Shown here: positions 48,901 to 61,894 of the stretch, piece after piece | Layout: every line of letters starts with the position of its first letter | Position numbering within the stretch: position 1 is the first letter of the stretch | DNA from: Streptomyces sp. SJL17-4 | Lineage (GTDB): Bacteria; Actinomycetota; Actinomycetes; Streptomycetales; Streptomycetaceae | Direction of reading: 5' to 3' | DNA length: 64,000 bases | NCBI RefSeq assembly: GCF_036826855.1 | Contig: NZ_CP104578.1 | Location: 2,914,001-2,978,000 of the forward strand | Program-made: the position numbers and the translations under genes | The notes under the pieces: model-generated | Told to the model about the DNA's origin: nothing | Database searches by the model: none | Seen by the model: only the letters and a program-made list of their open reading frames with translations

Positions 48901-49756
48901 CGACTCGCTGCTCAGCGAGTACGCGGCGATGGGCTTCGAGTACGGCTACTCGCTGGAGCGCCCGGACGCCCTGGTCATCTGGGAGGCCCAGTTCGGTGAC
49001 TTCGTCAACGGCGCGCAGACCGTCGTCGACGAGTTCATCTCCTCGGCCGAGCAGAAGTGGGGCCAGACCTCCGGCGTCACGCTGCTCCTGCCGCACGGCT
49101 ACGAGGGCCAGGGCCCGGACCACTCGTCCGCGCGCCCGGAGCGCTTCCTCCAGATGTGCGCCCAGGACAACATGACGGTCGCCATGCCGACGCTGCCGTC
49201 GAACTACTTCCACCTCCTGCGCTGGCAGGTCCACAACCCGCACCACAAGCCGCTCATCGTCTTCACCCCGAAGTCGATGCTGCGTCTGAAGGCCGCGGCG
49301 TCCAAGGCGGAGGAGTTCACCACCGGCGGCTTCCGCCCGGTGATCGGCGACACGACCGTGAACGCGGCCGACGTCCGCAAGGTCGTCTTCTGCGCCGGCA
49401 AGGTCTACTACGACCTGGAGGCCGAGCGTCAGAAGCGCGGTGACACGGAGACCGCGATCATCCGTCTGGAGCGTCTGTACCCGCTGCCGGGTGCCGAGCT
49501 CCAGGCCGAGATCGCCAAGTACCCGAACGCCGCGAAGTACATCTGGGCGCAGGAGGAGCCGGCGAACCAGGGTGCGTGGCCGTTCATCGCGCTCAACCTG
49601 ATCGACCACCTGGACCTGGCGGTCGGCGCGGACATCCCGGCGGGCGAGCGCCTGCGCCGGATCTCGCGTCCGCACTCCTCGTCCCCGGCGGTCGGCTCGG
49701 CCAAGCGCCACCAGGCCGAGCAGCAGCAGCTGGTCAACGAGGTCTTCGACGCCTGA
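45941..49756 (+). CDS. sucA: Multifunctional 2-oxoglutarate dehydrogenase/decarboxylase (E2-E1 fusion)
   Basis: 1271 residues from GTG 45941 (an earlier GTG at 45914 would add nine). Order: N-terminal E1 segment ([16 protein letters not shown]) ; a 90-residue Ala/Pro linker ([18 protein letters not shown]); an E2 acyltransferase domain with H366 in YDHRVIQGA; and a full ThDP-dependent E1 domain ([37 protein letters not shown]). This fusion, known as Kgd in mycobacteria and OdhA in corynebacteria, converts 2-oxoglutarate to succinyl-CoA in the TCA cycle. It lacks a lipoyl domain, which is supplied by another E2. Regulation by an FHA protein (GarA/OdhI) is known in relatives. Confidence 0.97.
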
Positions 49757-49764
49757 CCCGTCGC

Positions 49765-49817
49765 TCCGTACGTGTACGGAAGGAGGCCCGGCACCCCACC
49801 AGGGGTGCCGGGCCTCC
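49765..49817 (+). terminator. Tandem hairpins ending sucA
   Basis: TCCGTAC-GT-GTACGGA at 49765-49780, then a perfect 16-bp stem GGAGGCCCGGCACCCC (49782-49797), loop ACCA, GGGGTGCCGGGCCTCC (49802-49817). It lies between convergent sucA and fxsT, 18 bp before the fxsT stop, so it may serve both. Confidence 0.85.
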
Positions 49818-49834
49818 GGCGTGTCCGGGGTCGG

Positions 49835-52800
49835 TCAGAGGTTGGCCTCGAAGTCCCAGTACGGACGGTTGCGCTGCCGGGCCGAGAGGGTGTGCGGGTG
49901 CTGGGCGCCGAGCGTCCTGGTGAGGGTGAGCAGGGCGTCCTCCTCCAGCTTTGCGGCCTCTTCGGTCTCGCGCAGTCCGCGCAGGTCGGTGGCGAGCGAG
50001 ACCTGGCAGGAGAGGGTCAGCGGGTGCTCGGAGCCCATGACGTGCCGGGCCCGGCGCAGGGTGTCCCGGCTGAGTTCCGCGGCGTCGGACACGCGCCCGT
50101 TGAAGTTGCGGGCGGCCGTGGCGTTGAGGGCGCAGCCGAGGACCCAGGGGTGGTCGGGTCCGAGGGCGGCGGTGAGTCCGGCGAGCGCCGCCTCCAGCAT
50201 GGTCATGGCCTCGGTGCGCTCGCCCGCGGACTGCATCACGAGGGCGGTGTTGGCGAGGACGCCGGTGGAGACGGGGTGGGCGGGGCCGAGCAGGGCGCGG
50301 TAGCCGGCCTCGGCCTCGTTGATGAGTTCGCGGGCCCGGTCGAGGTCGCCGTGCTCGCGCAGGTAGTTGGCGTAGTTGGTGACCGCGGAGAGCGTGAGGT
50401 AGTGGCCGCGTCCCTGGGCCTGTTCGAGGTGGTCGAGGACGCCGGCCATGACGGCGCCGATGTCGTCCTTGAAGCCGCCTTCGCGGCGCCGGCAGAGGGC
50501 GAGCTGGCTGCGTGCGTAGAGGGTCTGCTGGTGCTGGGCGCCGAGGATCTTCACATGGAGGCGGACGTTCGCCTCCTGGCGGCCGAGCGCCTCGCGGTAG
50601 CGGCCGAGCAGCCGGAGATCCTGGGCGACCGCGTTGTTGGAGTTGAGGGTGGAGGGGTGGTGGGGGCGCAGGATGTTCTCGCAGCGGGAGAGGGTGTCGG
50701 CGTCCTGCTCGTGCGCCTCCTGGTAGCGGCCGAGCATCCGCAGGACGACGCCGACGTTGTGACGGGCGGCGAGGGTGAGCTGCTGGGTCTCGCCGAGGAG
50801 GCTCTGCGCCTCGGCGAGGACCTCGCGCTGGAGGCGTTCGGATTCCTTGTACTGGCCGAGGAAGCGCAGGTCTCGGGCGATGCAGATCTTGGACTTGAGG
50901 TTGCCGAGCTCGTCGGGGTGGTCGGCCGTGGCGAGCAGGGTGCGGCGGGCGAGGTCGAGTTCGTATGCCTCTCGGAAGCCGCCGCTGCGGCGCAGGATGT
51001 CGCCTTCCACGGTGGTGAGTTCCTGCATCTGCGGGGAGAGCGGGTCCATGAAGCCGGTCCAGTTGCCGCGGATGCGACCGGCGAGGCGGGTGCCCGCCTT
51101 GTACTCGCCGCTGCGGTCGCAGTAGCGCAGGCAGTTGAGGACGGTGGTCTGGATCCTCGGGTCGGTGCTGCGCAGTGCCCCGGAGGGCTCCAGGTGGGGC
51201 AGGAGCTCGGAGTAGCGGGGCCAGTTCCGGCTGTCCGTCGGGTTCCCCGGGTCGGCCTCGGCGAGCAGCGTCCGGACAGCCTTGCGGTGGGCGTCGCGGT
51301 GCTCGCCGTCGGTGAGCCGGGAGACGATGTCGTGCACCAGCCGGTGCATGTGGATCGACTCCTGCTGCGGTACGGCCTCGTCGCTGGTGACGGGGCCGCG
51401 GGTCTCCCGGGTGAGCACCGAGTAGTTGACGAGGGTGTCGAGGGCCCGGGTCCAGGCGGGCAGGTCGGTGGCCATCCACCGCAGGTCCTCGGGGAGGGAG
51501 GCCTGCGGGTGGGCACGGACGATGCCGAGGGGGATGCGGCCGGGGGCGAAGGAGGCGCAGAGGCTGAGGATGTCGATGGCCTGCGGCTGGGCGCGTCGGA
51601 GCCGGTTGATCAGTATCGACCAGGAGGTGAGCGAGGTGTTCGGCATGCCGTCGCCGGTGCTCGGCTCGTCGACGGTGGAGAGCCGTCCCTCACGGACCAT
51701 GCGCAGGTACTCGGAGGCCTCCATGCCGGACTCGCCGAGCCAGGCGGCGGCCTGGACGAGGGGCAGGGGTACGTCTCCGAACTCGGCGGCGACCTCGTCG
51801 GCCTCGACGGCGGTGATGTGCGGGGCCCGGCGCATGAGGTAGCCGGTGGACTCCGCGCGGTCGAAGTTGCGGACCGGGAGCACGTCGGTGTGTTCACGCC
51901 AGCCGTGGTTGCGGGAGGTGATGAGGACGTGTCCGGGTCCCTGCGGGACCGTGACGTCGACGTCCCTGATGTCGTCCCAGCCGTCGAAGACGACGAGCCA
52001 GCGGCTGTGCGGGTCGCCGCGGCGGAGGGCTTCGCGGACGGCGCGGATGCGTTCGCCCGGCTCGCTGCCGGTGGGCAGTTCGAGGGCGACGGCGAGTTCG
52101 CCGAGGCGGTCGCGCTGGATGTTCCGGTCGTCGGAGCTGACCCACCAGATGACGTCGTAGTCGGAGCTGAAGCGGTGGGCGTACTCGGCGGCGATCTGGG
52201 TCTTGCCGATGCCGGACATGCCGAGGAGGGTGTACGCGGCGTTGCCGCGCTCGGCGTCCATGAGCCGTTCCTGGAGCTCGGTGAGGAGGTCGTCCCGGCC
52301 GGTGAAGCGGGGGTTGCGGCGGGGTACCTCGCCCCAGATGTCCGGCGGGGTCTCGGGGTAGCGGACGAGGGCGCCGGGCGCGATCCGGCGGGCCGGGGAA
52401 CGGCGTGGTTCGATGTCGAGCCTGCTGAGGAGCCGGGCCTCCGCCTCCTCTTCGCCGACGCCCCAGAGGCTGACCGGTTCGAGGACGGCCGTGGAGGGGA
52501 GGAGGGTGCGGTTGGTGAGGTTGACGGCGGCGAAGCGGTCGGCCTGGCTCGCGACGAAGCCGCGCAGGACGTCGTTCCACTCGCCGGCCGGCCGGGGGCC
52601 CAGTTCGAAGAACCAGTCGTCGAGGACGAGGAGGACCCTGCCGCGGGCGAGGAGCAGATCGCCGAGGGAGTCCTCCAGGGGGACCTCGCGGGGCGGGTCC
52701 CAGCGTTGCAGGGTGGCGCGGACACCGTGGGTGTCGAGGCGCTGGTTGATCCAGGCCGCCCACGGTCGGTGGTAGCCGGGAAAGACGACAAGGACGTGCT

Positions 52801-52858
52801 CGGGAGCCGCTCTGCCACCGTGGTCCGCCGAAGCGCCGCCCGACCGCTGTTCCGCCAT
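49835..52858 (-). CDS. fxsT: FxSxx-COOH-system TPR protein (TIR-like, NB-ARC, TPR)
   Basis: 1007 residues from ATG 52858 (GGGAG eight bases upstream; longer frame to 52954 looks non-coding). Order: TIR-like domain (about 20-150; EHVLVVFPGYHRPWAAWIN), NB-ARC/STAND ATPase with Walker A GMSGIGKT (213-220) and Walker B WLVVFDGWDD (287-296), a winged-helix region, then about 12 TPRs from residue 600 (LGRYQEAHEQDADTL, HPSTLNSNNAVAQDLRLLGRYREAL). The NB-ARC with TPR layout is typical of signal-integrating, oligomerising STAND proteins. Named FxsT in systems that modify FxSxx-COOH peptides. Last gene of the island operon, 58 bp after the hydroxylase gene. Confidence 0.88.
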   Translation of the reverse strand: MAEQRSGGASADHGGRAAPEHVLVVFPGYHRPWAAWINQRLDTHGVRATLQRWDPPREVPLEDSLGDLLLARGRVLLVLDDWFFELGPRPAGEWNDVLRGFVASQADRFAAVNLTNRTLLPSTAVLEPVSLWGVGEEEAEARLLSRLDIEPRRSPARRIAPGALVRYPETPPDIWGEVPRRNPRFTGRDDLLTELQERLMDAERGNAAYTLLGMSGIGKTQIAAEYAHRFSSDYDVIWWVSSDDRNIQRDRLGELAVALELPTGSEPGERIRAVREALRRGDPHSRWLVVFDGWDDIRDVDVTVPQGPGHVLITSRNHGWREHTDVLPVRNFDRAESTGYLMRRAPHITAVEADEVAAEFGDVPLPLVQAAAWLGESGMEASEYLRMVREGRLSTVDEPSTGDGMPNTSLTSWSILINRLRRAQPQAIDILSLCASFAPGRIPLGIVRAHPQASLPEDLRWMATDLPAWTRALDTLVNYSVLTRETRGPVTSDEAVPQQESIHMHRLVHDIVSRLTDGEHRDAHRKAVRTLLAEADPGNPTDSRNWPRYSELLPHLEPSGALRSTDPRIQTTVLNCLRYCDRSGEYKAGTRLAGRIRGNWTGFMDPLSPQMQELTTVEGDILRRSGGFREAYELDLARRTLLATADHPDELGNLKSKICIARDLRFLGQYKESERLQREVLAEAQSLLGETQQLTLAARHNVGVVLRMLGRYQEAHEQDADTLSRCENILRPHHPSTLNSNNAVAQDLRLLGRYREALGRQEANVRLHVKILGAQHQQTLYARSQLALCRRREGGFKDDIGAVMAGVLDHLEQAQGRGHYLTLSAVTNYANYLREHGDLDRARELINEAEAGYRALLGPAHPVSTGVLANTALVMQSAGERTEAMTMLEAALAGLTAALGPDHPWVLGCALNATAARNFNGRVSDAAELSRDTLRRARHVMGSEHPLTLSCQVSLATDLRGLRETEEAAKLEEDALLTLTRTLGAQHPHTLSARQRNRPYWDFEANL

Positions 52859-52916
52859 GTGTGCATCTCCCGTCCCGCTCACGCGCCACGCAGTGTCATG
52901 TGCCGTGGGCACAGTG

Positions 52917-54215
52917 TTACGCAAGGGCTCGCCGGCCGGAGCTGAGGCTCGCAAGGTGCCTCCTCATTTGCCGGGCGAACTCCCTTCCCTCATTGGTCAG
53001 TTCATCGGATTCAAGCAGTATCGCAAGGGCTTCGACCACCTGATCGTGGACCTGCTCGAACCGTTGTGCGGACCGCACGCGCCACTGCTCGGGCACACCG
53101 GAGGCACGACCGACCCGCGCCGCCCGGTGCCACAGGTCGGCGAGCGCGAGGTGGGCGTAGACCCCCTGGAGGACGCCGGCGACCGGGCGGGCGTCCGTGC
53201 GCCAGCCGACCCGGTAGGTGGGGGCCGCCCGGTCCGGCGGGTGGAGGCGGTGGAGCGGGACCAGCTCGTGGAGCGTGGCGAGCTTGCTGTGGTGCAGTTC
53301 GTGGACCAGGGTCTCGGCCATGTCCGCGGCACCGGCGGAGGGCGTCATGAGGACCGCTCCGGGGGCGGCGCTCAGCGTGGCTCCGATGGCACGCGCCCCG
53401 CGCGGGACGAGGGGCACGACGGCGTCCACCGAGCGGCCCACCTCGACGGCCCGCTCCCGGTCGGTCCCGCGCAGCAGACGGCGGGCGGCGGTCCAGCGGG
53501 CGGCCCAGCAGGCGTGGTCGGTGTCGGTGTGGTCGGCCGCGGCCCGAGCCGGGATGCCCATGTCCGGCGGCAGCCGGTAGGGGTCGAGGTCCTCGAGTCG
53601 GGTGGCGCCGCCGGGCAGGGCGCGCAGCCCGCGCCAGCCGGGGCCGCTGCCCGTCAGGGTCGTCGCGGGGCCGTTCGCGCGTCGGCGGAGCACGGCGCGG
53701 GAGCCCGTACCGTCCCCGCCCCCGATCCGTACCGCGCGGGAGCGGGCGTCGATCCGGAGCCGGCGCGCGCCGCCCGCCTCGACCCGGCCGACGCCGGGGA
53801 GCGGGAGCACTCCGCCGGGGACCTCGACGACCAGGTCCACCGACAGCCCGGCGCGCAGGGCCGCGGTGACGGCGAGGAGTTCGAGATGGGCGAGGTGGCG
53901 GTCGAGGCCGGCCCCGAGCGGCTCGGTGAGCGCGGCGGCGAGCCAGGCACCGGTGGTCGGGTAGTCCAGGACGACGCGCACGACGTCCGGGCGGGCGCGC
54001 TCGGCCCGTTCCAGCAGGAGCCAGCCCGCCTCGAAGCGGCGCAGGACCGCGGGCGCCACCGTCTCGCGGTGACGCTGGACCCGCACCAGGAGGGTCTTGA
54101 GCAGGAGCAGCCGACGGGCGTGCAGCCCGGCGCGCAGAAAGGACGCCCCGGCCGGTCCGGGGCGGGTGGTGGCGAGACCTGCGAGCACCGCCGGGTCCGG
54201 CGGGGCGGTGATCAC
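52917..54215 (-). CDS. HExxH-motif peptide hydroxylase-like protein
   Basis: 432 residues from GTG 54215. The metal motif H305-E-L-H-H309 lies in ETLVHELHHSKLATL, in the C-terminal half, followed by a conserved-looking YRVGWRTDARPVAGVLQGVYAHLALADLW. This is the HEXXH-motif family found with FxSxx-COOH/RiPP loci, now described as alpha-ketoglutarate-dependent peptide beta-hydroxylases; earlier it was taken for a peptidase. Family assignment is from motif and context. It follows the precursor-like peptide gene by 168 bp, so it probably modifies that peptide. No signal peptide. Confidence 0.8.
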   Translation of the reverse strand: MITAPPDPAVLAGLATTRPGPAGASFLRAGLHARRLLLLKTLLVRVQRHRETVAPAVLRRFEAGWLLLERAERARPDVVRVVLDYPTTGAWLAAALTEPLGAGLDRHLAHLELLAVTAALRAGLSVDLVVEVPGGVLPLPGVGRVEAGGARRLRIDARSRAVRIGGGDGTGSRAVLRRRANGPATTLTGSGPGWRGLRALPGGATRLEDLDPYRLPPDMGIPARAAADHTDTDHACWAARWTAARRLLRGTDRERAVEVGRSVDAVVPLVPRGARAIGATLSAAPGAVLMTPSAGAADMAETLVHELHHSKLATLHELVPLHRLHPPDRAAPTYRVGWRTDARPVAGVLQGVYAHLALADLWHRAARVGRASGVPEQWRVRSAQRFEQVHDQVVEALAILLESDELTNEGREFARQMRRHLASLSSGRRALA

Positions 54216-54383
54216 CCCCGGCTCCTGGCGCGGGTCCGGGCCCGGGTCCGGGCGCGGGTCCGGCCGCAGGGTGGACCGGACGGCGCGGACCGGCCCGAGG
54301 CGCCGAGGGGTGACCGGCCGCCGGGCGTCGATACGGCCGAAAACGATCGCCCTGTACGGGCGTCCCGCAGGTGCACCCGGCGG

Positions 54384-54581
54384 TCAGCCGATGAACTCGT
54401 CCTCTTTCCAGGACTCGACGAGATCCGAGGGGCGGAGCAGCACTCTCTCCACCGCGGCCCCGAGAGCGGCATCGTCCGTGACCCGCAGGGTCCGCAGGTC
54501 GACGGCCGCGAGATCGGACAGTTGCGGAGACCAGACGGCATCCCGGCCGACACCGGTCGCCCACCCCGTGTGCTCGAACAC
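54384..54581 (-). CDS. Small RiPP-precursor-like peptide (FxsA-like leader)
   Basis: 65 residues from GTG 54581, selected because GAGGAG lies 8 bases upstream; earlier in-frame starts (ATG 54665, TTG 54674) lack a ribosome binding site. The centre LSDLAAVDLRTLRVTDDAAL resembles the conserved leader of FxSxx-COOH precursors (L-x-D-L-x-x-V-x-L-R-T-L-R), followed by a helix GAAVERVL. The C-terminus is ESWKEDEFIG, so the end is F-I-G rather than F-x-S-x-x. It lies directly before the HExxH enzyme and 115 bp after the vWA-like gene. Precursor role is inferred from leader, size and context. Confidence 0.65.
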   Translation of the reverse strand: MFEHTGWATGVGRDAVWSPQLSDLAAVDLRTLRVTDDAALGAAVERVLLRPSDLVESWKEDEFIG

Positions 54582-54695
54582 TCTCGGCTCCTCCTCACCG
54601 ACGCTGTCCCCCACGGTCGTAGCGGTGCGGCGGTTCTTCCCGACGCCAGGAGACCGGAAACCCATTCGATTCAACTGCCCCCATGTGCGCCCCCG

Positions 54696-57600
54696 TTATC
54701 CAGCCGTCCAGGACCACCACGGGGGCATGACACGGCGGCGCTCCTCGGACGTGAGCGGCACCCCTTCCCTCGCCCTGGCGCTCTCCACCCCCGCGAGCAG
54801 CGCCCGGGTCCGCTCCACGTCGTCCCAGTCGACCTCCACCAGCTCCCCCGTGAGGCGACGCCACTGCGCCGTCGCCGCGAGCAGCACCGTTCGGGCCCGC
54901 GCCGGTCGGCCCATCAGGACGAGCACCGCCCCCTGGGCGTGCAGCGCGCGGGCGCCGGTGACCGTGCCCGGGTCGTCACCGTGGGCGGCACGGGAGTCCT
55001 CCCCGGCGTTGCGGTACGCGGCGAGGGCGTCGCCGATCACACCGTCCCGCGCGGTTTCGGCCAACTCCAGACGGACCCGGCCCAGTTGCAGCCACACCTC
55101 GGCGCGGGCGCCGGGGTCGTGGGTGCCCCGGAGGGCCTGTTCGAGCACATGGCGGCTCTCGAAGAGATCGGGCAGGAACCCGGCGCGGTGGAAGCGGAGG
55201 GCGAGGACGCTGCCGATCAGGGTCCGCGCCCGCGCGCGCTCGGGCGCTCCGGCGGGCAGGCGCGTGAGGGCCTCGCGCAGCACGCCCTCGGCCCGGTCGA
55301 CCGGCGTCGTGCCCGTACCCGCCGCGGCGCGCCGCAGCAGCGAGCCGCCCCAGGTGAGCAGCAGCGGGCCGCGCTGCTCGCTGTCGGCGGGGGCGAGCAG
55401 GGTGGCCTCCTCGTACGCCGCGTCGGCGGCCGCCCCGTCGCCCTCCGTGTCGTACAGCCGGGCGCGTGCGGTGGTGAAGCGCAGCCGCAGGGCGCGCGCG
55501 TCGCCGAGGAGGGGTTCGGCGCGGTCGAGCACGGGGCCGATGCGGCCCGGTTCGGCCTCGGCGAGGTGGAGGGCGTCGGCGAGGTCGAGGAGGGCGGCGG
55601 CGCTCTCGTGCAGGGTGAGGGCGGCGGTGAGTTCGGCGGCCGCCGCCTCGCCGTCACCGCGCGCGAGGAGCAGCCGGCCGCGTCGCAGATGGAGGGTGTG
55701 GCGGGCGGATTCCGGCCAGCGGTCGGCGTCCTCGGCTAGGGCGGTGAGGGCCGCGTCGAGATGGCCGGTCTCGTCGGTGTCCCGCCACAACGCGTGGTGG
55801 ACGACGGCGAGTTCGAGGCGGGCCTCGGCCCATGCCTCGCCGCCGGCGTCGGCGAGCTCCCCGGCCCGTACGAGCGTGTCGGCGGCCGCTCCGAGGAGCG
55901 CGGGGCGGCGGCCGGTGCGGCGGGCGGAGGCGGTGCCGGCCTCGGCGTACAGGGCGCGGGCGAGGACGATCCGGGCCTCGACCGGTTCCGCCGGGAGCGC
56001 CGCCTCGGCGCGCTCGCGTGCCCCGGCGAGCAGGGCCGGGTCGGACTGGGCGCGGCCCTGCGCGAGGAGCCGGCGGGCCTCGGTGAGCGGGTCGGGGGTG
56101 ACGAGGTCGGGGTGGTAGAAGCGGAGCACGCGCGCGGGGATACGGGCGAAGAGCTCGGTCTCGGGGCCGTCGGGTCCCAGGGGCTCGTCGGTCGCCTCGG
56201 TCTCCTCGGGGAGGTCGGTGGCCCGACCGTGGCTCCGGCGGGCCCCGGAGCCGGCACCGGGACCGGGGCCGGGACCCGTTCCGGTGTCGGCCTCGGTGTC
56301 GGCGCCCGCGAGGCGCGCGGCGGCGAGCGCCGGGAAGTTGCGCATGCCCTGGCCGAAATTGCGCTCCACATAGGCGGAGCAGTGCTTGAGGACGAGGGCG
56401 GCGGCGCTGGGGTCGAGCGAGCCGAGGAAGTGCTGCTGGATGCCGGGCGGATAGCTGAAGCAGGGGTACGGGGTGGGCCCGGGCAGTCGTCGCAGCAGCC
56501 CGCTGAGCAGGACCTCGGCAAGCTCCATGGGCCCGGTGTCGGGCAGCATGGCGCGCTGCACGAGCTGCATCACGGGCAGGGTCAGCGGGGCCGCCGCGAG
56601 GTGGACGGCGAGCCGGAGCGCGCCGGGTGAGGCCGCGGCCCGGAAGGCGCGGAGGAGGTCGTCGTCGCTCCGTACGGTGCGGGAGGTCCTTGGCGCGCGC
56701 GGCTCCACGGCTTCGGGGGCGAGCCAGGCGGCCCAGCCGCGTACGGCGTTGCCGCCGTGCCCGGTGTGGAGCCGGGTCCAGGAGGCGAAGGCCTCGGGGG
56801 TCGGGGTGAGCACGGGGACGGCCCTGCGGCCGGGGAGCCCGGGTCCCCAGGGCTCGTCGTCCGAGCGGAACGCGGTGTGGCCGCCGGGGGTGGCGGAGCG
56901 CTGGAAGGTGCCGGGTTCGGCGGGGAGCGCGGTGCGGGGCCAGAGGCGCGGCGGCAGCGGCTGGACGAGGGCGAGCGGGGAGTTGCGGGGCCACTGGCGC
57001 AGGAAGCGCTGGGCGGCGCCGCGCTGCCAGAGGGGTCCGACGCAGTCGCTGACGACCAGGGTGAGACGGCGGCCGGTGGGGTCGTGGAGCTGGTCGACGG
57101 GGCGCAGCCGGGGGCGGCCGTCGGCACCGGAGGTGGTGGTGACCAGCGGGGGGCCTTCGCCGGTGTCGTACAGGCGGTGCACCTGGACGTCGCGGAAGGC
57201 GCCGGACTGCTGGCAGGCCTGCCGGAGTTCCTCGACCATCCGGCTCCAGACGACCATGGCGGGGCCGGTGTCCATGAGGAGCTGGATGTCGGGGCGCCGG
57301 CCGGTCGCCGGGCGCATCACGGGGGTGAGGATGCCGGCGGCGGCGCTGCGTTCGGCGGTGGCCTCCTCGTCGAGGACGCCCTCGCCGGGGCGGTGGGGTG
57401 CGCGGGCGTAGGCGCGCAGCGGGCGGAGGGCCTTCTGGAGTCCTAAGAGCCCGGGCAGGGCGTTGGCGCCGGGGGCGCGGACGGGCAGGGTCGCGCCCCG
57501 GTCCGTACGCCGGTCTCCGCCGCCGGTGACCCCGGGGGCGTGGGGGGCTCCGGTGGCTCCTGTGCCGCCGGTGACTCCGTCGGCCGCTCCGGCCGCTCCG

Positions 57601-57971
57601 TCTGCTCCCGTGACTCCCGGGGCCGCTCCTGTGGCTCCGGTGGCTCCCGTGGCCATGTGGAGGGAGACGGATTCGCGCGGCCCGCCGTGCCCGTCCGCCG
57701 CTCCCCCGTCCCCGTCCCTACCCCCGCCCGCGGCACCGGCTTCACCGCGGCCCGGGTCCTGTCCGTCGGCGGAGCCGTCCCCGGCCGTCTCCCGCCGAGG
57801 ATCGGTCGGCGCCCCCTCCGAGCCCTCCGACCCTTCCGGCGCCTCCTGGTCCGGGGAGCGGCCGGGGAGCCATTGGGACAGCCAGAGGGCGTCCGCGACG
57901 TCCTCGGCGGTGGGGTCCTGGCCACCGGCCCGCAGTCTGCGGGTGAGTTCCTCCAGATGCATCCGGTGCAT
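54696..57971 (-). CDS. SAV_2336-like protein: vWA-like domain plus TPR-like C-terminus
   Basis: 1091 residues from ATG 57971 with GAGGTG nine bases upstream, 7 bp after the MoxR stop. N-terminal helical region (LEELTRRLRAGGQDPTAEDVADALWL) typical of SAV_2336 proteins; residues 105-150 collagen-like G-x-T/A triplets (TGATGATGAAPGVTGADG); vWA-like domain from about 228 with a MIDAS-like D234-T-G-P-A (LLMDTGPAMVVW) and VVSDCVGPLW; then helical repeats (about 640-1060, Ala/Leu/Arg-rich, TPR-like). In ternary conflict systems a vWA protein works with a MoxR ATPase and a VMAP-fused effector, exactly the neighbours here. Confidence 0.8.
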   Translation of the reverse strand: MHRMHLEELTRRLRAGGQDPTAEDVADALWLSQWLPGRSPDQEAPEGSEGSEGAPTDPRRETAGDGSADGQDPGRGEAGAAGGGRDGDGGAADGHGGPRESVSLHMATGATGATGAAPGVTGADGAAGAADGVTGGTGATGAPHAPGVTGGGDRRTDRGATLPVRAPGANALPGLLGLQKALRPLRAYARAPHRPGEGVLDEEATAERSAAAGILTPVMRPATGRRPDIQLLMDTGPAMVVWSRMVEELRQACQQSGAFRDVQVHRLYDTGEGPPLVTTTSGADGRPRLRPVDQLHDPTGRRLTLVVSDCVGPLWQRGAAQRFLRQWPRNSPLALVQPLPPRLWPRTALPAEPGTFQRSATPGGHTAFRSDDEPWGPGLPGRRAVPVLTPTPEAFASWTRLHTGHGGNAVRGWAAWLAPEAVEPRAPRTSRTVRSDDDLLRAFRAAASPGALRLAVHLAAAPLTLPVMQLVQRAMLPDTGPMELAEVLLSGLLRRLPGPTPYPCFSYPPGIQQHFLGSLDPSAAALVLKHCSAYVERNFGQGMRNFPALAAARLAGADTEADTGTGPGPGPGAGSGARRSHGRATDLPEETEATDEPLGPDGPETELFARIPARVLRFYHPDLVTPDPLTEARRLLAQGRAQSDPALLAGARERAEAALPAEPVEARIVLARALYAEAGTASARRTGRRPALLGAAADTLVRAGELADAGGEAWAEARLELAVVHHALWRDTDETGHLDAALTALAEDADRWPESARHTLHLRRGRLLLARGDGEAAAAELTAALTLHESAAALLDLADALHLAEAEPGRIGPVLDRAEPLLGDARALRLRFTTARARLYDTEGDGAAADAAYEEATLLAPADSEQRGPLLLTWGGSLLRRAAAGTGTTPVDRAEGVLREALTRLPAGAPERARARTLIGSVLALRFHRAGFLPDLFESRHVLEQALRGTHDPGARAEVWLQLGRVRLELAETARDGVIGDALAAYRNAGEDSRAAHGDDPGTVTGARALHAQGAVLVLMGRPARARTVLLAATAQWRRLTGELVEVDWDDVERTRALLAGVESARAREGVPLTSEERRRVMPPWWSWTAG

Positions 57972-57978
57972 CCGATCG

Positions 57979-58995
57979 TCACCTCGGCTGATCGAGCGGT
58001 TGCATGAGCATGTCGGCGATGCGTTCCCTGGTGACCCGTTCGGCGCGGGAGGCGTGCTGGGTCAGATAGAGCGCGTTGAGGAGCTGGTCGGTGGCGATGA
58101 CCTCGCCGGGCTCGCGGTTGAGGAAGCGCTGGACGAGGCCCTGCTCCCCGTCGCCCGCGGTGGCCTCGCCGCCGAGGTGGGCCTCGATCATGGCGTGGAG
58201 CTGTTCCTCGCCGGGCGCTTCCAGCTCCAGGCGGATGCAGCGGCGCAACAGGGCGGCGGGGAAGTCCCGTTCGCCGTTGGAGGTGAGCACGATGAACGGG
58301 AAGGTGGTGCAGCGGACCCGGCCGCCGAGCACCGCCACCTTGCGGCCGTCGTCGCTGAGCACCTCGACGACGGGCTCCCGGTCGGCGAGCCGCTCCAGCT
58401 CGGGAATGGCGAACTCGCCCTCCTCCAAGGCGTTCAGGAGGTCGTTGGGCAGGTCCAGGTCGCTCTTGTCGAGTTCGTCGATGAGCAGCACCCGGGGCTG
58501 TTCGGAGGGGAGCAGCGCGGTACCGAGCGGGCCGAGCCGGATGTACGAGCCGATGCCGGCCGGGGCCGCGGCGGCGGAGCCGGGCGATCCGGCCTGGGCG
58601 CGCTCCAGCTGGACGTCCTGGAGCCGGCCGATGGCGTCGTACCGGTAGAGCCCGTCCTGGAGGGTGGTCCGGCTGACGATCGGCCACCGGAGCACGCGCC
58701 CGAGGCGCAGTTCGTGGGCGACGGCGTGGGCGAGGGTGGACTTGCCGGTGCCGGGGTTGCCGGTGACGAGGAGCGGACGCCGCAGGTACAGCGCGGCGTT
58801 GACGGCGTCGGTCTCGGCGGGCCTGGGGTGGTGGTTCTGGACGAGTCGGCGCTTGACGCCGAGCCGCCGGTCGGAGCCCGCCAGGGTGTCGTCGGCGCTG
58901 CCCGTGGAGAAGTCGCGCCAGGGCGGCGGGGCGGGCAACCGCTGTATCTCGTCGTGCGGAAGACCGGCACCACGGTAGATCCGCCAATCGTTCAC
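57979..58995 (-). CDS. MoxR-type AAA+ ATPase
   Basis: 338 residues from GTG 58995, with GGAGGAG seven bases upstream. Walker A GNPGTGKST (79-87), Walker B VLLIDELDKS (169-178), sensor 1 FIVLTSNGERDFP and sensor 2 region LLRRCIRLELEAP. A residue 135-148 Ala/Ser/Gly insertion lies between the two. MoxR ATPases remodel protein complexes together with vWA partners; the vWA-like gene follows immediately. Longer frames upstream are shadows of the trypsin gene. Confidence 0.92.
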   Translation of the reverse strand: MNDWRIYRGAGLPHDEIQRLPAPPPWRDFSTGSADDTLAGSDRRLGVKRRLVQNHHPRPAETDAVNAALYLRRPLLVTGNPGTGKSTLAHAVAHELRLGRVLRWPIVSRTTLQDGLYRYDAIGRLQDVQLERAQAGSPGSAAAAPAGIGSYIRLGPLGTALLPSEQPRVLLIDELDKSDLDLPNDLLNALEEGEFAIPELERLADREPVVEVLSDDGRKVAVLGGRVRCTTFPFIVLTSNGERDFPAALLRRCIRLELEAPGEEQLHAMIEAHLGGEATAGDGEQGLVQRFLNREPGEVIATDQLLNALYLTQHASRAERVTRERIADMLMQPLDQPR

Positions 58996-59116
58996 GATGG
59001 ACTCCTCCTGGCTGTGGTGTCGATGCCGGGTCCGTCGACGGTACCGCCCGGGAGCGGGGCCTGCCGATGGCTTAATCGGACGGATCTCGGGGCCGTCGTC
59101 CCGGTGGGCACTCCGG

Positions 59117-61165
59117 TCACTGCTCCCCCTCCGCGAGCAGGGGCGGGGGCTCCAGGCGACCGCCGTGCGGAGGCCGGTCGGGCGGGTCCAGGAGCAGGGC
59201 GAGGTTCTCGGCCCACGCGTACGCGGCCAGCGCCTCTGGGCCCGCCGCCCGGTCCGTCGCGCGCGTGCGCAGGGATCTGACGGGTCCTCGGACGTCCCAG
59301 GCGGTGGGGGTGGCGGAGAGCAGCCGGGCGGCCCGCTCGTGGAACTCCGCGCAGTCGCCGTGGTCGTGGACGCCGGTCCGCCAGAGGGCGAGCGGATGCC
59401 CGGCGGCGAGCGCCGCGTGCAGCGCCATGAACCCGTCTCCGCCGCCCACTCGGCCGCAGTACACGGGCACGGTGCCGCCCTCGGCCTCCCGGAGCCGGTC
59501 GTACGTCTCCGCCCAGGTCTCCCGGCGTACGCGCGCGGAGTGGGCGTCCTGGCCCGCGCCGGGCACCTCCGCGCGCAGCGGGGCGGCGCGGAGCGGCCCG
59601 CGCTCCGCCGCCTCCCAGCGCTCGCGCCATTCGGGAGCAGGTTCCCGGTCGTAGCGGCGGCGGTCGCGGATGACGACGAACCTGCGCTGGCCGAGCGTGG
59701 TCGCCCAGGCGTCCTCGGGGCCGCCCTGGGGCGGTTCGAGCCGCCAGGTGTCGAGGGGTTCGTCGAAGAGCTGGGGCGGCAGCACCGCCTCCACGGCGGC
59801 CAGGTGCCGTCCGCTGTCGCCGCGCCGCAGGGCGTCCGCGAGCGGCTCGCGCAGGGTCTCCCTGAGCTGGGCCCGCTCGACGCCCCGCTCGTCGAAGTGG
59901 AGCGGGCTGACCGTGTGCCCGTCGAGGAGGAGCTTGACCCGCCACGGGTAGCGGAGGTCGTAGATCGGCGGGTCGATCTCCAGGAGGACGTCGGCACGCG
60001 CGCGGGGTTCGCGTACGGAGAGGGGCGCCGGCCGGCCGGGACTGACGAGCCGGTCGATCTCGCGCCGGAGGTGCCGGTCGGCGTCGCCCGACTCGTCGAC
60101 GATCCAGTAGGTGAGGTCCGCGGTGTCCACCCGCTCGCCGTACCGCCCGCGCACGTGCCGGGCGACATGGGCGGCGTACAGGAGCACCGCGTCCAGTTCG
60201 AGGTCGCGGACGCCGTCCCTGCGGGGCGCCCGCAGTCCGCGCAGGAGTCCGGCGCCCTCGCTCCAGGTGCGCGGGTCGTCCTCCAGGGCGTCGGGCAGTT
60301 CGTCGTCCCTGATCCAGGCCTTGACCTGGTCGACGAGGTCCATGATCTCGCCGGGCGCGGTGGGCGCGGGCAGCTCGGCGAAGTGTCCGTACAGCTGGGT
60401 GCGCAGTCCCGGGCTGACGCCGGAGGAGCCGGTGAGGCGGCCCTGGGTGCGGGTCCAGTCGGGCCGGTCGTCCAGGGAGCGGTAGCGGGCGAGGTGGTAC
60501 CGGTCGTGGGCGCGGAGCGCCTCGCCCATCGCCTCGCCGCCGGGGAGGTCGTGCAGCCTGCGCAGCGCGGTGACGGGGACCACGGCTCCGCCGTCGCGGC
60601 CGCGTCCCTTGTTGAGGCCGACGACGGCGCCCTGCTGGTGGTCGACGACGGGCCCGCCGGAGCAGCCTTCGACGGGCATGACCCAGTCGGTGATGAGCGC
60701 CTTGCCGTCCGTGCCGATCAGGGTGCCGTGGACGTGCCGGATGCCGAGCTCGCCGGTCTCCCGGGACCAGCCGTGCAGTCCGACGGCGGTCGGCGGGACG
60801 GGCGGGCGCTCGCCGAGGCGCACACAGGACGCCTTCTGCGCGGCGGGCACGCGGATCAGCGCGATGTCGGGGAAGGCCCACCGGTCCGGCGGGTCGTCGG
60901 GCCGGTCGGGGCGCGGCAGGGCGAGCACGACGGTGCCGGTGGTCTCCCGGGAGGTCTTGCCGTCCTCCCAGGTGATGCCGACGGCGGGCTCGCTCCTCCA
61001 CACCGCGCTTCCTCCCTCGGCCACGACATGGGCGCAGGTCAGCACCCAGCCGGGGGCGATGAAGAAGCCGGTGCCCCAGTACCGGTCGCCGTGCGGGTCA
61101 TACCCGCAGTCGGGAGCGGCGATGCGTACGAGTGCGGGGCGCACGAGAGCGTCGAAGGCGCTCAT
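59117..61165 (-). CDS. Trypsin-like protease fused to VMAP-type domains
   Basis: 682 residues from ATG 61165, overlapping the upstream stop (ATGA). The N-terminal 190 residues are a trypsin-fold protease with H46 (LTCAHVV), D100 (FPDIALIRV) and S169 (EGCSGGPV), all intact. There is no signal peptide, so it acts inside the cell. The rest has a helical middle and a C-terminal region (RYPWRVKLLLDGHTVSPLHFDERGV, VEAVLPPQLFDEP) resembling the VMAP-M and VMAP-C modules. In such systems the protease is the effector, released or activated when the vWA/MoxR partners sense an invader. Activity is inferred. Confidence 0.82.
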   Translation of the reverse strand: MSAFDALVRPALVRIAAPDCGYDPHGDRYWGTGFFIAPGWVLTCAHVVAEGGSAVWRSEPAVGITWEDGKTSRETTGTVVLALPRPDRPDDPPDRWAFPDIALIRVPAAQKASCVRLGERPPVPPTAVGLHGWSRETGELGIRHVHGTLIGTDGKALITDWVMPVEGCSGGPVVDHQQGAVVGLNKGRGRDGGAVVPVTALRRLHDLPGGEAMGEALRAHDRYHLARYRSLDDRPDWTRTQGRLTGSSGVSPGLRTQLYGHFAELPAPTAPGEIMDLVDQVKAWIRDDELPDALEDDPRTWSEGAGLLRGLRAPRRDGVRDLELDAVLLYAAHVARHVRGRYGERVDTADLTYWIVDESGDADRHLRREIDRLVSPGRPAPLSVREPRARADVLLEIDPPIYDLRYPWRVKLLLDGHTVSPLHFDERGVERAQLRETLREPLADALRRGDSGRHLAAVEAVLPPQLFDEPLDTWRLEPPQGGPEDAWATTLGQRRFVVIRDRRRYDREPAPEWRERWEAAERGPLRAAPLRAEVPGAGQDAHSARVRRETWAETYDRLREAEGGTVPVYCGRVGGGDGFMALHAALAAGHPLALWRTGVHDHGDCAEFHERAARLLSATPTAWDVRGPVRSLRTRATDRAAGPEALAAYAWAENLALLLDPPDRPPHGGRLEPPPLLAEGEQ

Positions 61166-61614
61166 GCGGGCTCATCGGCCGCCGGGTCCGGTGCGGAGGG
61201 GTCGGGTGCGGGCGGCCGGGGTGCGGGAACGGCCGCGGGGTCCGCGACGGAGTCCGGCGCGGCGCCGGCCGCGGGCTCGGCGGAACGGCCCGGTTCGGTC
61301 CAGGTCAGCGAGACGTTCACGGAGGCCTTGCCCGAGCCGTCCGCGAGGACTCCGATCACCTTGCCGGACTGCGCCGACAGTTCGATGCCGAAGCTGACGG
61401 CGACCTCCACGGACCCCTGCGGGTCGAGCCCGGCCCGCAGCGAGCCGACCACCCCGCGCACCACGTCCGTGAGCCCGCCGGCCATCGAGACCACCCGGTC
61501 CTTGACGCCGGTGTCCTGGAAGCCACCGCCCCTGCCGAGTTCCTGCACGTCACTGACCCGGGCCCACACGGGCGTGCCGTCGTCCAGCCGAATACGCGCG
61601 ATCCCGTGCGTCAC
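61162..61614 (-). CDS. Trypsin-co-occurring (TRYPCO1/CU044_2847-like) protein
   Basis: 150 residues, first gene of the island operon. A single beta-rich domain of about 110 residues (GTPVWARVSDVQELGR, VEVAVSFGIELSAQSGKVIGVLADGSGKASVNVSLTW) followed by a Pro/Ala/Asp tail (PAPRPPAPDPSAPDPAAD). Small proteins of this kind are found beside trypsin-like effectors and probably serve as an adaptor or target that couples sensing to the protease. The stop overlaps the protease start, so the two are translationally coupled. Confidence 0.75.
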   Translation of the reverse strand: MTHGIARIRLDDGTPVWARVSDVQELGRGGGFQDTGVKDRVVSMAGGLTDVVRGVVGSLRAGLDPQGSVEVAVSFGIELSAQSGKVIGVLADGSGKASVNVSLTWTEPGRSAEPAAGAAPDSVADPAAVPAPRPPAPDPSAPDPAADEPA

Positions 61615-61696
61615 AGCGCCCCCGCTCCCCGAAACGATGATGGGGAAGGCTAGTCGGTGGGGCTGACGGGCGACAGGGGACGTGGGAGGTTCGGCC

Positions 61697-61708
61697 TATC
61701 CTGATCGC
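61697..61708 (+). promoter_or_regulatory. -10 hexamer TATCCT six bases before ATG (leaderless)
   Basis: TATCCT at 61697-61702 followed by GATCGC and ATG 61709. No Shine-Dalgarno. Typical spacing for transcription starting at the start codon. Confidence 0.4.
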
Positions 61709-61894
61709 ATGTACTTCACCGACCGTGGCATCGAGGAACTGGAGAAGCGGCGCGGCGAGGAGGAGGTCACCTTCGAGTGGCTCGCCGAGCAGCTGCGGAC
61801 GTTCGTCGATCTCAACCCCGACTTCGAGGTGCCGGTCGAGCGCCTCGCGACCTGGCTGGCCCGTCTTGACGACGAGGACGACGAGGACGAGTAG
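61709..61894 (+). CDS. DUF6104-like small protein
   Basis: 61 residues from ATG 61709: M-Y-F-T-D-R-G-I-E-E-L-E-K-R-R, then TFEWLAEQLRTFVDLNPDFEVP, ending in an acidic tail LDDEDDEDE. From memory this is the highly conserved streptomycete family DUF6104. Too short for a catalytic domain; helical and acidic, possibly an adaptor. It is monocistronic, with a leaderless-type promoter and a strong terminator 28 bp downstream. Confidence 0.85.
   Translation: MYFTDRGIEELEKRRGEEEVTFEWLAEQLRTFVDLNPDFEVPVERLATWLARLDDEDDEDE

Follow-up and report, generated by a model that had tools for sequence, protein, structure and literature searches.

Does a protease module that stands directly beside a peptide-modification module form one system with it, or have two systems come to lie side by side? 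The question is raised by seven minus-strand genes (49835-61614) within a stretch of 64,000 nt, here called the window, from Streptomyces sp. SJL17-4 (NZ_CP104578.1, positions 2,914,001-2,978,000 of the forward strand). A preliminary description of this stretch had read the genes, in order, as Trypco1, trypsin-VMAP, MoxR, SAV_2336 (vWA-like), a precursor peptide, a HExxH enzyme and FxsT, and had proposed that they work as one circuit; reading frames and family matches confirm all seven in that order (Table 1). The comparisons reported here indicate that the genes are very probably a single co-inherited and exchangeable unit. The case for such a unit is stronger than the preliminary description offered, and its interpretation overall is partly supported.

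A profile made from the HExxH alignment was used to search genome contigs, and the best 80 of 180 relatives were inspected. The order Trypco1, VMAP, MoxR, SAV_2336, HExxH, FxsT, on one strand and with no radical SAM gene, was kept in 60 of the 65 loci whose upstream sequence reaches 9 kb or more (the five breaking it being L048, L057, L077, L079 and L080). A radical-SAM/SPASM frame was found in 4 of the 80 HExxH-selected loci (L077, L079, L080, L081). Cassettes of the window type came only from Streptomyces among these best 80 of 180 loci.

The convergent neighbour of the cassette, kgd, is present in 149 of 150 sampled Streptomyces genomes, so the same site could be compared between species. 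A census was made of the 19.9 kb downstream of kgd in 65 genomes with no more than 10 contigs and a listed kgd position (G141 was omitted), with loci classed by domain-specific queries. No cassette gene above threshold was found at 29 sites. A full HExxH-only cassette, as in the window, occupies nine, a full radical-SAM-only cassette another nine, both enzymes occur together at 11 and the remaining seven are partial. The two-enzyme loci comprise six complete cassettes, three without Trypco1 and two without Trypco1 and VMAP in the stretch fetched (one of which has masked bases). Among the partial loci are three with the protease half alone, three with an isolated HExxH gene and one (L164) with the peptide half alone. 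The preliminary description had set a comparison of gene order across streptomycetes beforehand; besides the conserved order, this comparison shows that the halves are not mostly apart, as 29 of the 32 MoxR-bearing kgd loci also have a peptide-modifying enzyme and FxsT. Conversely, MoxR is present at 29 of the 33 kgd loci with a peptide-modifying enzyme. In three radical-SAM-only genomes (G036, G064, G103) a TIGR04267 match is absent genome-wide. The lone HExxH genes beside kgd in L116, L143 and L147, which belong to species near two-enzyme carriers on the kgd tree, look like remnants. One protease-only cassette contains a 1499-residue frame (L141:14821-19320) in which an AAA_16-like region, below cut-off, is joined to trypsin and VMAP-C.

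Only 300-452 bp separate kgd from the homologue of the 62032-62877 gene in 13 of the 65 kgd loci; the site there is nearly empty, which places the block at a fixed site. A close relative, L156, defines its borders: positions 4-577 of that locus align with 49256-49829 of the window and positions 565-764 with 61692-61894. The block missing from L156 consists of the seven genes and about 77 bp upstream of Trypco1; against L156, the seven genes thus act as a single insertion/deletion unit. A mobile island was considered and rejected on the basis of these nearly empty sites (no systematic recombinase search was made). The kgd site can also hold other cargo, namely AMP-binding, PP-binding and thioesterase proteins (L142, L155) and a nitroreductase (L136, L142).

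Trees were built from 98 loci (33 hand-picked and all 65 kgd-site loci) and the window; 61 loci passed the filters, i.e. FxsT of at least 200 bits, an assigned enzyme class, a frame of more than 500 residues and few unknown residues (L159 and L108 are among those lost). On the FxsT tree (62 rows) the HExxH-only and radical-SAM-only types are each split off by one branch, so that two changes of type, the minimum, suffice. The same holds for the MoxR tree (58 rows, without L053, L054, L164 and L171) and the VMAP tree (52 rows, without ten rows that include both outgroups). On a tree of a 501-bp kgd tail (66 rows), which rests on a short stretch, the HExxH-only type instead requires 8 changes, the radical-SAM-only type 6 and the two-enzyme type 8, of which supported branches force 6, 5 and 7, respectively; adding empty and partial states as labels gives 26 changes in total. 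Given this difference between the cassette trees and the kgd tail, cassettes appear to have been exchanged as blocks between lineages. No mixing of types was seen in the tree rows: within a cassette, the peptide tail and the enzyme that modifies it belong to the same type as FxsT, MoxR and the VMAP protease. The Thermomonosporaceae outgroups carry both enzymes, and this suggests, with the root placed at the midpoint, that the two-enzyme state is the older one and that the lineage of the window lost radical SAM a single time.

The precursors sort in the same way. A leader of the form LPDL..LDL..LR..(H/D)P.L..V is common to precursors of all three enzyme types, and the tail type matches the enzyme type in all 30 precursors recovered from the kgd site, by rules that were drawn up after the sequences were seen and of which the Trp rule is weak on its own. 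The nine HExxH-only precursors have a Trp tail, the 12 two-enzyme precursors (L164 included) a F(N/D)(S/N/A) tail and the nine radical-SAM-only precursors A(Y/H)(Y/F)(E/D), or AVYGD in L159; L161 also fits the two-enzyme pattern. When all recovered precursors are counted, repeats included, neither of the other motifs lies close to the end of any of the 77 HExxH-only precursors, the two-enzyme motif is present in 32 of 34 two-enzyme precursors (not in L077 and L101) and Trp lies within the last 62 residues in 76 of 77 HExxH-only frames (the exception being L063). The precursor was not recovered in 13 of 133 loci, and L090-L109 are partly the same genomes as L110-L174; the kgd-site counts are free of such repeats. 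This match of tail to enzyme supports a pairing of enzyme and substrate. A second conserved tail motif, similar to TF(S/P)(A/V)GLA, is seen in the HExxH-only precursors of L025, L039, L042, L020 and their relatives.

What, then, does the HExxH enzyme act on? A search for relatives of the window precursor gave 22 proteins, its own included, and in 22 aligned rows (the window and 21 of these proteins) W58, E60 and D61 are invariant and FxSxx is absent. An FxSxx end is found in 0 of 77 HExxH-only precursors against 10 of 34 two-enzyme precursors. The window tail lacks RxD and contains a run of three acidic residues, and an FxSxx label for it was rejected, as it ends in DEFIG and the motif is absent from the aligned relatives. 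The genome's one TIGR04267 match is the window gene. No FxsB was found above cut-off in the whole genome (best 66.7 against 370 bits), and the cassette has no radical-SAM partner; a hidden partner nearby or elsewhere was rejected for the FxsB type, three weaker genome matches all falling below the FxsB cut-off. Stand-alone HExxH relatives are common (133 significant proteins among 7991 candidates scored), and among the 120 of the 133 that are listed, all rows with a named organism are Streptomyces. The HExxH and W-R-x-D-x-R-P motifs and a further His are intact in 68 of 68 HExxH-only rows, window included. The nearest solved relatives are PDB 22nu (129 bits), which carries the name 'radical SAM core domain-containing protein', and ChlH (8s5f, 60 bits).

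According to the text of PMC12636437, ChlH-type enzymes hydroxylate Asp and His once a cyclophane has been made, PflC/PosC hydroxylate Gln and cleave the backbone oxidatively, and related alpha-ketoglutarate (aKG)-HEXXH enzymes both hydroxylate precursor peptides and cut them oxidatively. ChlH and PflC/PosC, as described there, share the HExxH catalytic domain family with the window enzyme, but belong to natural-product clusters, and ChlH needs the preinstalled cyclophane. As the cyclophane enzyme is missing from the cassette, the HExxH enzyme should act on a linear tail, with the Trp and neighbouring acidic residues as candidate targets. Judged from its sequence, the enzyme is likely to oxidise the peptide.

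An opposing possibility is that the enzyme is mainly a metallopeptidase that removes the precursor tail. Kaur et al. (PMC7159879) describe it as a zincin-like peptidase in the text of their paper, PflC is proteolytic when the leader is missing (in the text of PMC12636437) and the glutamate of HExxH is present in all 68 rows, but the best-matching family (TIGR04267) and solved relatives such as ChlH (8s5f) are aKG-dependent peptide hydroxylases, and a metallopeptidase is therefore unlikely.

The preliminary description had treated the two modules as known only separately. Their join is not new, since Kaur et al. 2020 (PMC7159879) had already published the linkage, a separate TIR-AP-ATPase gene included. 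According to the text of that paper, about 20% of the VMAP-ternary systems in actinobacteria have a linked peptide-processing module; this module combines a zincin-like protein with a small precursor and an AP-ATPase/TPR effector, and a peptide toxin or signal is suggested. The text describes an FxSxx type, in which the TPRs lie on the vWA protein, a separate TIR-AP-ATPase gene comes next and a radical-SAM/SPASM gene is tied in, and other VMAP-linked types with RxD or four acidic residues, in which the AP-ATPase is fused to the vWA protein. The window resembles VMAP-ternary systems, as described there, in VMAP-C, in the gene order VMAP-MoxR-vWA and in having Trypco1 beside trypsin. With the FxSxx type it shares trypsin-VMAP and Trypco1, a MoxR-like ATPase, a vWA-like TPR protein, precursor, HExxH and a downstream TIR-AP-ATPase-TPR gene; by the wording of the paper's text it differs in having neither radical SAM/SPASM nor an FxSxx end. 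Compared with the RxD and acidic types of that text, its tail has no RxD or four acidic residues and its NB-ARC gene is separate. The cassette is best read as a radical-SAM-less variant of the combined VMAP-ternary and peptide systems that Kaur et al. describe, and it falls under none of the types named in their text. Nor is it the standard FxSxx-COOH system that had been proposed, as FxsT is present but FxsB is not, and the precursor ends in ..SWKEDEFIG.

The nearest comparisons are instead found at kgd. Two-enzyme cassettes (L117, L126, L135 and others) share with the window the site, gene order, a homologous leader, FxsT, MoxR and VMAP, but have radical SAM and tails of the form ..LWGF(N/D)(S/N).. 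or ..LNAFDS... Radical-SAM-only cassettes (L119, L120, L124 and others) share the site and frame genes, but no HExxH domain was detected in them and their tails differ as given above. For other VMAP systems, a 2024 paper on hypermutated sensors (PMC10907252) proposes the vWA protein as sensor and the VMAP peptidase as effector; its accessible text makes no mention of Streptomyces peptide modules. No experiments on MoxR-vWA-VMAP peptide systems were found in the open-licence literature (subscription papers and supplements not covered).

Is the unit expressed as one? A -10-like TAGCCT, which we take to be of the housekeeping type, lies upstream of Trypco1 and is conserved in 21 of 24 aligned upstream rows (24 from a larger set). 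A scan with the sigma-70 consensus gave no promoter-like site. Upstream of the precursor, a motif of the form GTTTC(C/T)-N13/14-GGGAA(G/A) scored at least 11 in 76 of 78 HExxH-only rows, the window among them; L110 repeats L006, which leaves 75 of 77 distinct sequences. Among two-enzyme rows 10 of 34 reach the same score, and among radical-SAM-only rows 2 of 9, against 31 of 4000 random pieces. In the 280 nt upstream of the other genes it is nearly absent (Trypco1 0/70, VMAP 0/71, MoxR 1/71, SAV_2336 0/72, FxsT 0/85), with 5/83 for the HExxH gene, which follows the precursor closely. The motif was noticed in the data before it was counted, so these counts are descriptive and do not test a prior hypothesis. 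Its form fits the SigB-family consensus GTTTAA-N12-14-GGG(A/T)A(A/T), as given in the text of PMC8346170, but most rows have G as the sixth -10 base, which is off consensus. The same text states that GTTT is more conserved where a promoter belongs to the SigF/H/N group, which is linked to sporulation. A separate, stress-linked promoter probably serves the peptide half. Of the proposed circuit, the single inherited unit stands, but a conserved SigB-type motif just before the precursor gene speaks against a single transcript.

These observations can be combined into a tentative mechanism. Trypco1, trypsin-VMAP, MoxR and the SAV_2336 vWA-TPR protein would form a resting, ATP-driven sentinel that keeps an intracellular trypsin-like protease inactive. 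Under stress or during development, the SigB-family promoter would turn on the peptide half, and the HExxH enzyme, with iron and 2-oxoglutarate, would oxidise the precursor at its Trp tail, through either beta-hydroxylation or oxidative cleavage. The peptide so modified would remain in the cytosol as a ligand of the TPR region of FxsT. Once the sentinel fired, its protease might cut or release the peptide or FxsT, which would then assemble through NB-ARC so that the TIR domain kills or arrests the cell. We give even chances to the whole of this explanation, an exchangeable conflict or stress cassette with a protease sentinel and a stress-induced modified peptide as FxsT ligand; the particular wiring of protease, peptide and FxsT is doubtful. 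Catalytic residues look largely intact. The Walker A Lys and Walker B Asp/Glu of MoxR are present in 72 of 72 HExxH-only rows, and 69 of 70 keep the Asp and Ser columns of trypsin (window included in both). The 80 loci yielded 63 VMAP frames, 57 of which show a His, Asp, Ser pattern.

However, a number of observations weigh against this explanation or against a single unit. The vWA metal-ion-dependent adhesion site (MIDAS, DxSxS) is degenerate in most HExxH-only rows, the third position being Gly in 46 of 72 and the fifth Ala in 42 of 72, whereas in the other two types (window row excluded) Ser is kept at the third position in 17 of 18 and at the fifth in 15 of 18. Glu62 of the FxsT TIR domain, a column we take to be the catalytic glutamate of NAD-cleaving TIR, is present in 64 of 72 HExxH-only rows but in 2 of 17 rows of other types. 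The types are still somewhat clustered on the kgd-tail tree; shuffled labels match its values in 29 (HExxH-only), 1 (radical-SAM-only) and 13 (two-enzyme) of 500 cases. Moreover, the halves recombine within the HExxH-only type. In L012, L018 and L017, VMAP, MoxR and SAV_2336 are 81-98% identical to the window and HExxH is 55-57% identical (for L012, VMAP 95%, MoxR 98% and HExxH 57%). Pairwise identities are most tightly correlated between HExxH and FxsT (r 0.93), with r 0.77-0.89 between halves. Physical linkage by itself can yield co-inheritance, and halves do stand alone at kgd (three protease, one peptide). Finally, the separate motif before the precursor suggests two transcripts.

The last three of these lines (recombining halves, lone halves and a separate SigB-type motif), together with the other cargo at the kgd site in L142, L155 and L136, favour two independent systems, each under a promoter of its own, that have merely become neighbours at a preferred insertion site. 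Such an arrangement is rather improbable, as 29 of 32 MoxR-bearing kgd loci hold both halves and the trees of MoxR and VMAP divide exactly along the peptide-enzyme types despite the repeated cassette exchange indicated by the kgd tail. Export of the modified peptide, as a toxin or a signal between cells by which neighbours are killed or warned, would agree with the peptide toxin or signal suggested in the text of Kaur et al. (PMC7159879), but there is no transporter gene in the seven-gene block, no obvious signal peptide on the precursor (read by eye, without a predictor), and FxsT of the same unit is a cytosolic-type TIR/NB-ARC/TPR receptor; we consider export quite unlikely. A stress or developmental circuit of Streptomyces, rather than phage defence, is a possibility, though clearly less likely than not. 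The SigB-type motif, with the more conserved GTTT of SigF/H/N promoters (text of PMC8346170), and the restriction of window-type cassettes to Streptomyces are consistent with it. Unlike core developmental genes, however, the cassette appears to be exchanged between lineages and 29 of 65 species have no cassette gene above threshold at the kgd site.

The kgd site might also be seen as a multi-allelic recognition locus, at which three peptide chemistries (radical SAM alone, both enzymes, HExxH alone), placed on homologous precursors, would each be read only by a matched set of FxsT and protease sentinel, as a self/non-self or kind-recognition switch between Streptomyces hyphae. This reading is a long shot. 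STAND-based incompatibility loci of filamentous fungi follow a comparable logic, and the kgd locus would have empty alleles and wholesale allele exchange. Whatever its role, the site occurs empty, with the protease half only and in three enzyme/peptide states, which makes it a natural experiment on the possible licensing of an NLR-like TIR protein by a modified peptide. In its simplest state the cassette has one oxygenase with a 65-residue substrate, so the chemistry could be reconstituted with two proteins, and the SigB-type motif is a first lead to the expression condition.

Table 1. Positions of the cassette genes, block borders and regulatory motifs in the window.
Feature	Position	Strand	Evidence
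Block present in window, absent from empty site of close relative L156	49830..61691		alignment to L156
Hairpin between convergent kgd and FxsT, possible shared terminator	49782..49819		self-inverted match
FxsT: TIR, NB-ARC, TPR, 1007 aa	49835..52858	-	NF040586 747 bits (cut-off 300); PF13676, PF00931, PF13374
Stand-alone aKG-HExxH peptide-modifying enzyme, 432 aa	52917..54215	-	TIGR04267 121.5 bits (cut-off 40)
Precursor peptide, 65 residues, FxsA-type leader and Trp-containing tail (..SWKEDEFIG)	54384..54581	-	no family above cut-off
SigB-type promoter motif GTTTCC-N14-GGGAAG, 55 nt upstream of precursor GTG	54636..54661	-	upstream-region comparison
SAV_2336 N-terminal (vWA-like) and TPR protein, 1091 aa	54696..57971	-	NF041121 419 bits (cut-off 200)
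MoxR-like AAA+ ATPase, 338 aa	57979..58995	-	AAA_5 38 bits (cut-off 22); bpMoxR 19 bits, below cut-off 27
Trypsin-like peptidase fused to VMAP-C, 682 aa	59117..61165	-	PF13365 53 bits (cut-off 27.6), PF20028 111 bits (cut-off 27)
Trypco1 (trypsin-co-occurring domain 1), 150 aa	61162..61614	-	PF19493 55 bits (cut-off 24.6), NF041216 50 bits
TAGCCT, -10-like, upstream of Trypco1	61647..61652	-	21/24 aligned upstream rows
DUF6104 gene, right border of block	61682-61894		PF19599 126 bits

Guanine-cytosine (GC) content by codon position picks out six of the seven frames. The one not selected is MoxR, because its open frame continues into the VMAP gene; it is supported instead by homology and motifs, and its position and motifs fit a MoxR role beside VMAP. 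Starts were refined to 58995 (MoxR), 54581 (precursor, GTG) and 52858 (FxsT). From Trypco1 to FxsT, neighbouring genes are separated by a 4-bp overlap and then by 121, 7, 114, 168 and 58 bp. In the trypsin-VMAP protein, Asp100 and Ser169 of the triad are present and the His lies within TCAHV. NB-ARC is in its own gene (FxsT) and is not fused to the vWA protein. A model of the SAV_2336 protein (mean predicted local distance difference test, pLDDT, 69) returned several vWA chains in a fold search, none of the 805 matches reaching E <= 0.001, and PADLOC models gave only weak and partial matches to the cassette. A second SAV_2336 N-terminal match was found in the same genome beyond the window, and another such system may therefore exist elsewhere in it.

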